Shown: in pieces, positions 11,948 through 19,622 of the stretch
Numbering within the stretch: position 1 is the stretch's first letter
How the letters are laid out: every line of letters begins with the position of its first letter
Assembly: GCA_037974965.1 (NCBI GenBank)
Contig: JBBPFI010000016.1
Coordinates: forward strand, 558,001-622,000
Source of the DNA: Dacryopinax spathularia
Taxonomy: Eukaryota > Basidiomycota > Dacrymycetes > Dacrymycetales > Dacrymycetaceae
DNA length: 64,000 nt
Reading direction: 5' to 3'
Made by a program: the position numbers and the translations under genes
The notes under the pieces: generated by a model
The model's input: the letters and a program-made list of their open reading frames with translations, nothing else
The model's database searches: none
What the model was told of the DNA's origin: nothing

Positions 11948-15860
<3,913 letters not shown>

Positions 15861-16032: not shown

Positions 16033-16504
16033 CTATTTCCTTGCATATGCCGAAGGCTGACTTGCTGACTGAGCGGCTTCTGCTCGAGCGAGGATCTTCT
16101 CCTCTTCTAATGCGTTCTGCAAGTTCGTTAGAGCCCAGTGTTGCACAGAAGAGCGTAGCTGGGGCGTACGGCAGCTGCCAACATCTCCAACTCTTTGTTT
16201 CGTTTTGCCAACGCCTAAGGATTCCATTAGCATGGTACGCCGATATAGTAGTCGCTTGTATACCTCTGTCATCAAGTCAATGTGCGCCCCAGTGACAAAG
16301 TGAGCGCAGGCTTACCTTCGCCTGCCTTCATGGTCGCGTTATGAACCACGAACATCTCGTAGATCCCGTACACCTCCCTCGCAGATCAGCCGAGTCCACC
16401 TTGAAAGGGGGTCGTCCGCTTACAGTTAGCCCCGCCAGCCCAGTGACCAGCGTCCTCTGCGCATAGTCCAGCCATGTTGTTCGTACTCGTACTGTCGGCC
16501 GCAT
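16033..16504 (-). CDS. COX14: COX14-like cytochrome c oxidase assembly factor, 89 aa, with a 2-nt microexon
   Basis: Cox14 is a small single-span inner-mitochondrial-membrane protein that steers Cox1 synthesis and complex IV assembly. The exons (minus strand) are 16504-16424, 16373-16316, 16265-16264, 16214-16170 and 16116-16033. The protein starts MRPTVRVRTTWLDYAQRTL, then has one transmembrane segment (LVTGLAGLTVYGIYEMFVV, about residues 19-37) and a charged coiled tail (ALAKRNKELEMLAAA). Length and pattern resemble yeast Cox14, which has T(D)xxHRLTVLTLVGGTLY, one span and a short charged tail. The two introns around the exon AG (16266-16315, 50 bp; 16215-16263, 49 bp) both have standard ends and a CTAAT or TTGAC branch. 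Without the two bases the coiled tail falls out of frame. The family call is by resemblance only. Confidence 0.6.
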
Positions 16505-16724
16505 GATGATCGCCGACAACGATGATGCCCGACACCGACGACGCCTCGCAAGAAATCACGGCCTTCGGAAGACCCTGACGGAGAAGCGGCCGGAGAAACT
16601 GAAGGTGACGTTGCTGGGCGGGCGCGTCGTCGTTGATCGGACCGTTGAAATCTCGCACACGACCGTTCAAGTACACTAAATACCGCTGCATAGGCCTTGA
16701 TCTTCCACCTTTCTGAGCTTCACG
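16505..16724. promoter_or_regulatory. Shared divergent promoter of COX14 and LRO1
   Basis: Only 220 bp separate the two start codons, which point away from each other, so both promoters must overlap or lie within the neighbour's leader. No clear TATA box is seen. An open reverse-strand frame here has no start and no family resemblance. Confidence 0.6.
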
Positions 16725-19622
16725 ATGCGCCGAAGAGCGCCCAAGACGGATGATGGGGAGGGGAAGATCGTAATTGACAAGAAAGCGTCCACTAAGGAGA
16801 AACTGGTAGGCAGCGGCTTGTTCGCGCTCGTACTGTCTGTGCGGTAGCTGACGACTGTCAGCTTCATCTTGCAGCTGCTACTCCAGGGATCGATCTTTCC
16901 GAAATAGACTGGCTTCGCCATGAGGTCGATAATGCAAAACCCCAGGTATGCCCGACATCTTATTTCCTCATAGTGAAAGAGCCTGCTCATTCCTCATGCA
17001 GCCCTTCTACAAATCCCGGCAATTCGTGTTCATGGTCGCCTTCGGCCTCGGTGCCATAGCTGCACTCTTCTTCATCGTCCCACTCCCTCCCCAACTCTCC
17101 GCACTAGAGGACTTCGACCTCCCGAGCTTCTCAATATCCGAAGCGATGCCGAACTGGTCGCTCGAGCTCTCGCTATCCCAGATAGTGGCCAACGTACGGG
17201 AGACGATGGCCCCTACGCGGCAGTGGCTTGCCAGCAGGGATTTCAAGGTCGGGACGGAGTTGGCGGAGAAGGGATATCAGGCGGACTTCCCGGTTATTAT
17301 GGTGCCTGGTATTGTCAGCACGGGGCTGGAGAGCTGGAGCACGTCGGAGGAGGCGAGGCCGTTCTTCAGGAAGAGGTTGTGGGGAACCACCACGTACGTC
17401 AACTACTCTGACAGTTCATGCGCAAGTTCTGACGACGTTGCCAGTATGATCCGAGCAGTCTTGACAGACAAAGACCGCTGGGTCAAGTCACTCAGCCTTG
17501 ACCCGCACACCGGCCTCGACCCACCAGGCATAAAAGTCCGCGCCGCCCAAGGCATAGACGCAGCAAGCACCTTCATCCCCGGCTACTGGATCTGGTCCGT
17601 CCCATCTCCCACCTTCCCATCCTATACTGATCCCAGGGTAACTAGGGCAAAGATCATCGAGAACCTCGCATGCATAAACTACGACAGCAACAACCTGTTC
17701 CTTGCGGCGTATGACTGGCGCTTGTCGTATTATAATTTGGAGGAGAGGGACAAGTATTTCTCGCTGTTGAAGATGCGGATAGAGCATTTTAAGGAGAGGC
17801 AGGGGAAGAAGACGGTGTTGATTGGGCATAGTATGGGCTCGGAGGTGAGCTCCCCATCTCGTTCTGCATCTGGCGAGGAGCTGACGGATGTGATCCTGCT
17901 AAATCATAGGTTGTTTTGGTGTGTTGCTTTCGTTCCTGAGCTCTCTACGACTGCTGACGATCTTCATAGTACTTGTAAGCCACTTCTTCCTGTTCTGGAA
18001 TCGCATTCAAATGCATATGACAGCTTGAAGTGGGTCGAAGCTAAAGGCCCTCAATACGGCAATGGAGGACCAAAGTGGGTGGATGTGCGTATCCTCCCTT
18101 TTTCGGTGAGTTGCCCTTTTGACCCCAGCACAGGAACATATCGAGGCCTTCATCAACATCGCTGGAACGATGTTTGGTGTCGTACGTACCTGATCTCCTC
18201 GTGCAGCCCAAAGGCTCTAATGTGTCATACAGGCCAAAGCAATGACTGCGTTCCTCTCGGGGGAAATGAAGGATACCGTCGAGATCAATCCTGCTGGGTC
18301 TTATGGTATGCGCGCCTGCCACACCTCGCTCTCGACCTTACATATCGGCACAGTTCTTGAGCGCTACTTCAGCCGCAAAGAGCGCGCACAACTCTTCCGC
18401 AGCTGGGCCGGCAGCGCCAGCATGTGGATCAAAGTGACCTTCCCTCCTCTCCTCCCGGTCCCGAGCGCTCTGCTGACATCGTGTGACAGGGCGGCAACGA
18501 CATCTGGGGCGACGGCGAACACGCCCCCGACGACCCAGACAACTGCACCCTCACGCACGGCCGGTTCTTCTCCTTCCAGCAGCAGCACGGCGACCACACG
18601 CACGGGATCGGGAACCTCACCGCGGCTGAAGTGAGCGACTTTGTCCTGGAGCGAACTCCCGTGGAGTTCCAGGTGCGTACCCTCCTACTGAGGCACGAGT
18701 GTGAGCGTCATAGCTGAGCGTGGGTGGGGGTTGATGTAGAGGATGCTGGCGACGAACTATAGTTATGGGATTGAGAGGGATGAGGCGCAGTTGAGGAGGA
18801 ATGATCATGATCATACGAAGTGGGTGAACCCGCTGGAGATTCGGTGAGCTGCTTCCTTACACCTTGGTGCTGTCGGAGCTGATTGCAGTGTGTAGGCTAC
18901 CAGATGCCCCGAATATGAAGATTTATTGTTTGTACGGGTATGGCAAAGAAACAGAGGTGCGCGTTCACCCGAATCGTCCTTGAGCATCATCTGATTACGT
19001 CTCTTCAGCGTTCTTACTGGTAAGACAAGCTCCCCTGTAAAGTCGAGCCACAGCTCATCATGTGCGGCAGGTACACCGAAGCGGAATACGAGCCCGATGA
19101 AGTTCAGCCCGACTCGATCGACCCCGTCTGCGAAGCCGAAGACTGCAGATACAACAATGGCTCTACCCTGCGAGCGCCGCTCGACATGCCTCTGTTCCAG
19201 AAACACTTTATCGACACCTCGGTGAACTACGACGCCGGCTATCCGAAGGTGCGCTCCTCCCTCTTTTCACATCTTATAGACGAAGTTGTTCACAAGGAGT
19301 GCAGGTCAAGAACGGCGTCAAGATGGGCGAAGGCGACGGCACCGTCTCCCTCATCTCGCTCGGATCAATGTGCGTCGAAGGCTGGCCCAACCACCCGCGC
19401 TGGAACCCCGCCCGGATCCCCGTCACGGTGCAAGAAATGCTACACGAGCCCGAGGCGCTCGACCTCAGAGGGGGGCCGAGGACGGCGGACCATATTGATA
19501 TATTGGGGAGTACGGCGCTGAATGAGGCGATCTTGAAGGTTGCTAGTGGGAGGGGTGGAGAGGTGGAGGATCGGTTTGTTAGTCCTATTAGGAAGTATGT
19601 GCGGAGGATGAAGTGGGATTGA
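16725..19622 (+). CDS. LRO1: Phospholipid:diacylglycerol acyltransferase Lro1, 681 aa, 17 exons
   Basis: Lro1 moves an acyl chain from a phospholipid to diacylglycerol, making triacylglycerol at the ER. I could place all 17 exons with matching phases: 16725-16805, 16862-16945, 17002-17393, 17445-17594, 17637-17844, 17910-17918, 17970-17974, 18024-18084, 18134-18181, 18233-18305, 18354-18433, 18490-18672, 18740-18843, 18896-18956, 19009-19019, 19071-19248 and 19305-19622. A basic, Lys/Arg-rich cytosolic tail (MRRRAPKTDD) comes before one membrane anchor (FVFMVAFGLGAIAALFFIV). The LCAT fold follows: lid/loop WGTTTMIRAVL, nucleophile GHSMGS (Ser), Asp in APNMKIYCLYGYGKETERSYW context, and His in the C-terminal LGSTALNEAILK region that follows RTADHIDIL. 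The length matches yeast Lro1 (661 aa). Exons 6, 7 and 15 are only 9, 5 and 11 nt and restore VVLYFLKWVEA and RSYWYTEAEY. Confidence 0.95.

Follow-up and report, generated by a model that had tools for sequence, protein, structure and literature searches.

The window analysed here is a stretch of 64,000 nucleotides from the basidiomycete Dacryopinax spathularia, whose assembly comprises 29.2 Mb in 24 contigs. On the minus strand, between positions 16504 and 16033, lies a compact predicted gene with exons of 81, 58, 2, 45 and 84 nt and introns of 50, 50, 49 and 53 nt, flanked by two genes on the plus strand. The features are given below, with the exons and introns in the order of transcription and the percentiles taken over the 295 predicted introns of our training set.

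About 11948-15860, plus strand: gene for a PEX1-like peroxisomal AAA ATPase (Pfam PEX-1N and AAA, 17 predicted introns), its 3' end facing that of the COX14-like gene
16424-16504, minus strand: exon 1, with the ATG at 16504-16502, encoding MRPTVRVRTTWLDYAQRTLVTGLAGLT, partly covered by the Pfam COX14 match (residues 7-34); coding log-odds neutral (-0.05)
16374-16423, minus strand: intron 1, 50 nt, donor GTAAGC, unusual acceptor GAG, 22nd percentile in total score; the COX14 match spans its junction
16316-16373, minus strand: exon 2, the membrane-span half, encoding VYGIYEMFVVHNATMKAGE and supplying base 1 of the following codon; coding log-odds +4.1 nats
16266-16315, minus strand: intron 2, 50 nt, donor GTAAGC (72nd percentile), acceptor CAG (31st), total score 66th of 295
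16264-16265, minus strand: candidate exon 3, the 2-nt microexon AG, completing GAG (Glu) at residue 47; in the best of 857 parses and of 891
16215-16263, minus strand: intron 3, 49 nt, weak donor GTATAC (4th percentile), branch-like GCTAAT, acceptor TAG (37th), total score 9th
16170-16214, minus strand: exon 4, encoding ALAKRNKELEMLAAA; coding log-odds +3.33 in the microexon frame
16117-16169, minus strand: intron 4, 53 nt, donor GTACGC, branch CTAAC, acceptor CAG, 67th percentile in total score
16033-16116, minus strand: exon 5, encoding NALEEEKILARAEAAQSASQPSAYARK and the stop codon; coding log-odds +2.45 in the predicted frame
16725-19622, plus strand: PDAT/LCAT-like gene (predicted start 16725; Pfam LCAT, E 3.3e-87), divergent from the COX14-like gene

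The COX14-like and PDAT-like genes diverge from predicted translation starts that are only 220 nt apart (16505-16724), so that the two may share a promoter region.

Around the candidate microexon the minus strand reads ...GCAGGCGAAG/GTAAGC...(50 nt)...GATGACAG/AG/GTATAC...(49 nt)...ATCCTTAG/GCGTTGGCAAAACG, with slashes at the predicted splice junctions. If the AG is included, the codons GAA GAG GCG TTG GCA AAA CGA... encode ...KAGEEALAKRNKELEMLAAA, and splicing of intron 4 joins exon 4 in frame to NALEEEKILARAEAAQSASQPSAYARK, with the stop codon ending at 16033. The spliced protein has 89 amino acids (MRPTVRVRTTWLDYAQRTLVTGLAGLTVYGIYEMFVVHNATMKAGEEALAKRNKELEMLAAANALEEEKILARAEAAQSASQPSAYARK). 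The original prediction had placed two introns at 16315-16266 (50 nt) and 16263-16215 (49 nt) with only AG (16265-16264) between them, which is exact to the base, and its statement that the AG completes a GAG codon and joins the membrane-span exon in frame to the tail can be read from the sequence. Its description of both introns as standard has to be corrected for the second, given the poor GTATAC donor (4th percentile of 295) and the 9th percentile of the whole intron.

The spliced protein matches the Pfam COX14 family (PF14880) with an E-value of 5e-4 and 20.3 bits, over residues 7-34 and profile positions 5-32 of 59. As the match falls under the Pfam gathering score of 25 bits, we use the name COX14-like, which the original prediction had reasonably proposed, as a lead. 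The match crosses the exon 1/2 junction and ends at residue 34, short of the microexon at residue 47, and it is indifferent to the microexon, scoring 20.2 bits without the AG versus 20.3 with it. In a six-frame search of the genome with PF14880 the gene was not matched because its exons are too short, and a weak match was found on another contig (16.5 bits, E 0.23); the six-frame control, with 14 genomes, gave weak matches in two prokaryotes (E. coli and Methanosarcina), which shows that chance alone can produce weak COX14 scores. Searching the spliced protein against its own genome gave three matches, all at this locus, and no other copy at E 0.001. No relative was found in the prokaryotic and viral contigs (genome_contigs, viral_contigs), and two pieces of the tail had no match in Pfam. 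A PDB search with the spliced protein gave eight matches, one at E 0.28; seven repeat-protein chains were taken as chance, since no single stretch passed alone. From the COX14 match we infer that the protein may be a mitochondrial inner-membrane assembly factor. COX14 is reported to bind COX1 and restrain COX1 synthesis in yeast and human (PMC3334569).

A small gene finder was trained on 264 kb of the genome, namely the 64-kb window and 200 kb more. Exons shorter than 8 nt were barred during training and the final state comprised 91 genes with 295 introns; the COX14-like gene was absent from the last training round and its bases were counted as background. A second training set left the window out and drew 196 introns from the other 200 kb. 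The introns have a median length of 54 nt (quartiles 51-63, n=295) and 32 of the 295 reach at least 95 nt. The same length peak was seen when strong donor-branch-acceptor motifs were counted separately versus Markov sequence. The consensus from the 264-kb training is GT(A/G)(C)G(T) for the donor, CTRAY for the branch and YAG for the acceptor. Donor position +4 is C in about 55% of the introns (GTRCGT; 264 kb), at a position where A is the more familiar base. Short introns and intron-rich genes are in keeping with a basidiomycete. The GAG at the end of intron 1 (16374-16376, minus strand) is an ending common to only 5 of the 295 predicted introns.

With a minimum exon length of 8 nt, the finished finder called no gene at the COX14-like locus. 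With any exon size allowed, it called exactly the five-exon, AG-containing structure, at a total score of only 2.0 nats; after training without the window, the gene stayed below the calling threshold. This low score and the missing call would fit a decayed or spurious locus that is not a working gene, as would the Pfam match under the cut-off. Such a reading has to contend with five consistent exons separated by introns of usual length, a COX14 match that runs across an exon junction, and the protein search in which the genome held no other copy at E 0.001, and we consider it hardly credible.

To compare exon structures, parses from exon 2 onward were enumerated with introns of 38-124 nt that scored at least -9 and with no more than four introns per parse. 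The parse with the 2-nt exon ranks first of 857, with 10.65 nats. The second and third parses (4.21 and 1.76) also use the AG, with intron 4 either kept or mis-spliced. Among the parses that lack a tiny exon, the highest score is 1.68, for a read-through terminal exon; removal of a single intron of 101 nt with intron 4 kept reaches 1.54. When the model was trained without the window, the 2-nt-exon parse was again first, of 891, with 8.55, and the leading parse lacking a tiny exon had 2.06. Other acceptors were rejected in the enumeration, and an extended exon 2 was rejected on account of a stop at 16272.

The coding log-odds of exon 4 in the three frames are +3.33, -3.18 and -3.96, and the AG selects the first of these. 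The read-through and AG-skipped forms both read exon 4 at -3.18, and the included frame is favoured by 6.5 nats over exon 4. The corresponding values for exon 5 are +2.45, -4.97 and -6.35; they do not separate the models, since exon 5 is read in one and the same frame by the main rivals too. Scored in the read-through frame, introns 3 and 4 have -3.91 and +0.65, respectively. The AG thus lies between two complete canonical introns with GT-AG ends (50 and 49 nt), the second with a weak donor, and skipping it shifts exon 4, while the frame of exon 5 can also be reached by retaining intron 4. The earlier expectation that skipping of the AG or read-through of intron 3 puts the tail out of frame therefore holds for exon 4, but the gene is not necessarily truncated: if introns 3 and 4 are both retained (49+53=102 nt), the exon-5 frame is regained without a stop, and if the AG is skipped and intron 4 retained, exon 5 is likewise read in frame without a stop, with the reading frame open to the same stop codon.

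In a first alternative there is no microexon, only 16315-16266 is removed and 16265-16033 forms one terminal exon, giving a protein with ...KAGEEVYKRLLYRRTMLMESLGVGKTKQRVGDVGSCRTPQLRSSVQHWALTNLQNALEEEKIL.... Such a gene would make a rare exon unnecessary and would account for the weak GTATAC donor; its 102 nt of introns 3 and 4 carry no in-frame stop and lead to the same stop codon, and the +0.65 of intron 4 is not against coding. It would nevertheless retain a good intron (GTACGC...CTAAC...CAG, 67th percentile) and use a frame that looks non-coding over both intron 3 (-3.91) and exon 4 (-3.18), and it scores 1.68 against 10.65, or 0.49 against 8.55 when trained without the window. We regard it as unlikely.

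In a second alternative, 16315-16215 is one intron of 101 nt and the frame is kept either by retention of intron 4 or through a base missed or added in the assembly. Against the microexon, no intron among the 295 uses GTATAC and 18 of the 295 lack G at +5; intron 3 (9th percentile) is below the single 101-nt intron taken alone (15th), and the single intron scores about equal to the pair (-1.95 versus -0.94). With intron 4 retained the frame is open, at 1.54, or at 2.06 after training without the window, where this is the best parse lacking a tiny exon. On the other side, only 32 of 295 introns reach 95 nt, and exon 4 looks non-coding in the frame without the AG. How often so good a split arises by chance was estimated with random 101-nt introns in which the donor and the last 20 nt were fixed, in three separate draws of 20,000. 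A 2-nt split at least as good was seen in 14 of 20,000, an equally good split with an exon of 2, 5 or 8 nt in 28 of 20,000 and one with any exon of 1-8 nt in 91 of 20,000; any GT-AG 2-nt split with both parts of at least 38 nt, however weak, occurred in 4.8% of the random introns.

The form with an assembly error was addressed by 590 random single-base indels placed 1-12 nt after introns in genes scoring at least 20. New exons of at most 3 nt appeared in 9 of the 590 tests (two of 0 nt, four of 1 nt and three of 3 nt), which speaks for an indel, and exons of at most 8 nt in 14 of 590. Near introns of 85-120 nt, in contrast, an indel gave a tiny exon in 0 of 46. The gene finder can therefore be fooled, but rarely in the geometry of a 101-nt intron. 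The assembly has 24 contigs for 29.2 Mb, which may also speak against an assembly error. Taking both forms together, a single 101-nt intron also seems an improbable account of the locus. The finder also places a questionable 4-nt exon in a gene that scores 0.5 and, under the other training set, puts a 4-nt exon in the PEX1-like gene; a reversed-sequence control had no tiny exon among its internal exons, of which there were four only.

A third alternative concerns the tandem acceptor CAG/AG. In recursive splicing, for which a layout of the CAGAG/GT type is known, the first step would use the second AG (CAGAG/GTATAC), regenerating a donor and leaving a zero-length exon, and the second step would remove GTATAC...TAG. 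The sequence matches this layout. In the product, however, G would be followed directly by GCG and exon 4 would be out of frame; parses of this kind with exon 2 whole reach at most -0.33 against 10.65, and GAG acceptors account for 5 of 295, which makes this reading very improbable. A recursive splice site was rejected in the same way, as an intron end at 16264 loses the exon-4 frame. The first AG of the tandem scores 4.39 and the second (16264-16265, minus strand) 1.41, so the AG that keeps the frame is also the stronger acceptor; use of the second AG could occur as mis-splicing.

The scores of the 2-nt exon have to be read with its rarity in mind. Our model adds no charge for a 2-nt exon, and part of the margin of 6.5-9 nats must therefore pay for it. 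A guessed prior of about 1/1000 would remove about 7 nats of this margin, after which, on sequence statistics alone, the 2-nt model would be level to modestly ahead (about -0.4 to +2 nats). Confidence in the 2-nt exon rests additionally on the tail, which looks helical and charged and appears to be the natural continuation of the protein, and on other microexons of the genome.

Two of these are consecutive exons of the neighbouring PDAT-like gene, about 1.7 kb away from the AG:

17910-17918, plus strand: 9-nt exon
17970-17974, plus strand: 5-nt exon

Together they encode VVLYF, inside GHSMGSEVVLYFLKW / LIGHSMGSEVVLYFLKWVEA, and this segment aligns, gap-free across VVLYF, to HSMGNMYTLYFLQ / VLVAHSMGNMYTLYFLQ of group XV phospholipase A2 (E 0.0017). 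The two microexons code for part of a conserved stretch that immediately follows the GHSMG lipase motif. The frame breaks within a few residues if the 5-nt exon or the pair is left out, while omitting the 9-nt exon alone leaves the frame intact and loses VVL. The homology support for both exons suggests that the genome uses microexons as short as 5 nt. A further exon of 11 nt is predicted in the same gene (19009-19019, plus strand). With any exon size allowed, exons of at most 8 nt make up 4 of the 234 internal exons in predicted genes of positive score: the COX14-like AG, the PDAT-like 5-nt exon, a 7-nt exon and the 4-nt exon in the gene scoring 0.5.

Splice signals, intron lengths and reading frame thus agree best with the 2-nt exon of the original prediction, and we infer from them that the locus is probably a five-exon gene for an 89-aa COX14-like protein whose third exon is only AG.

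The original prediction had called for unusual splice-site recognition or stepwise splicing. Unusual recognition does not seem to be required, since stepwise removal of two introns of usual length would suffice. Simultaneous recognition across a 2-nt exon is sterically implausible, as the acceptor and donor footprints overlap. Introns near the usual 50 nt of this genome would each be recognised as a unit (intron definition), so that recognition bridging the exon would not be needed. The strong donor at 16315 would most likely pair first with the CAG acceptor at 16266, and the first ligation would leave exon 2 and the AG directly 5' of GTATAC. The 49-nt intron would be removed next through its own branch-like GCTAAT and its TAG. 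Either order leaves the context of the second donor unchanged, because GAG precedes GTATAC before and after the first step.

It is conceivable, if quite doubtful, that the AG exon and the weak second donor act as a frame switch which tunes COX1 assembly by splicing efficiency. Full splicing would then give the 89-aa COX14-like protein. If introns 3 and 4 were both kept, or the AG were skipped and intron 4 kept, a longer protein with a different middle and the same C-terminus would result.

Exons of this size are very rare, though not unheard of, and 1-nt cases have been published in plants and Fusarium. The CYP621A gene of Fusarium is described with a single-nucleotide exon backed by 20 orthologs, an intronless relative and SRA reads, and the same source mentions exons of 2-5 bp in Arabidopsis, Drosophila and human (PMC12940212). 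Like the COX14-like AG, the CYP621A exon is fungal, ultra-short, placed between two introns and joins exons of incompatible phase; unlike it, the exon has 1 nt instead of 2, while the COX14-like exon is predicted from one genome only. In plants, a single-nucleotide exon is reported for Arabidopsis APC11 (PMC4674806), and 1-nt microexons for APC11 and VPS55 (PMC8831610). There too the tiny exon is required for the frame, but it is 1 nt long, occurs in plants and has RT-PCR or RNA-seq evidence.

Among basidiomycetes, microexons of 5 bp and 6 bp are reported for yeast bglA genes (PMC9142197) and of 6 bp for Phanerochaete P450 genes (PMC1184071). These resemble the present case as basidiomycete microexons among short introns and are longer, with at least 5 nt versus 2 nt in the COX14-like gene. 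A regulatory microexon is reported in Trichoderma (PMC11121469), and three further papers merely name the microexon option of an aligner (PMC3990503, PMC4014442, PMC8022950). Spliceosomal twin introns, or stwintrons, are described as two adjacent introns removed in consecutive reactions (PMC12403724, PMC9024468), which is also how the two adjacent introns here would be removed. In a stwintron, however, the inner intron interrupts a splice element of the outer one, whereas introns 2 and 3 of the COX14-like gene are each complete, with uninterrupted donor, branch-like site and acceptor, and a stwintron was therefore rejected. No 2-nt exon of a basidiomycete appeared among the papers listed in our searches of the open-access literature, so the COX14-like AG may be the first to be described in this group.

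The case also matters for annotation, since the COX14-like gene could be overlooked by a conventional gene finder or be given two introns as coding sequence; our own finder missed it when exons shorter than 8 nt were barred. If RNA confirms the structure, the ability to splice exons of 1-2 nt would extend from plants and Fusarium to a basidiomycete. Exon size would then seem to have almost no lower limit in a genome whose introns are uniformly about 50 nt long.
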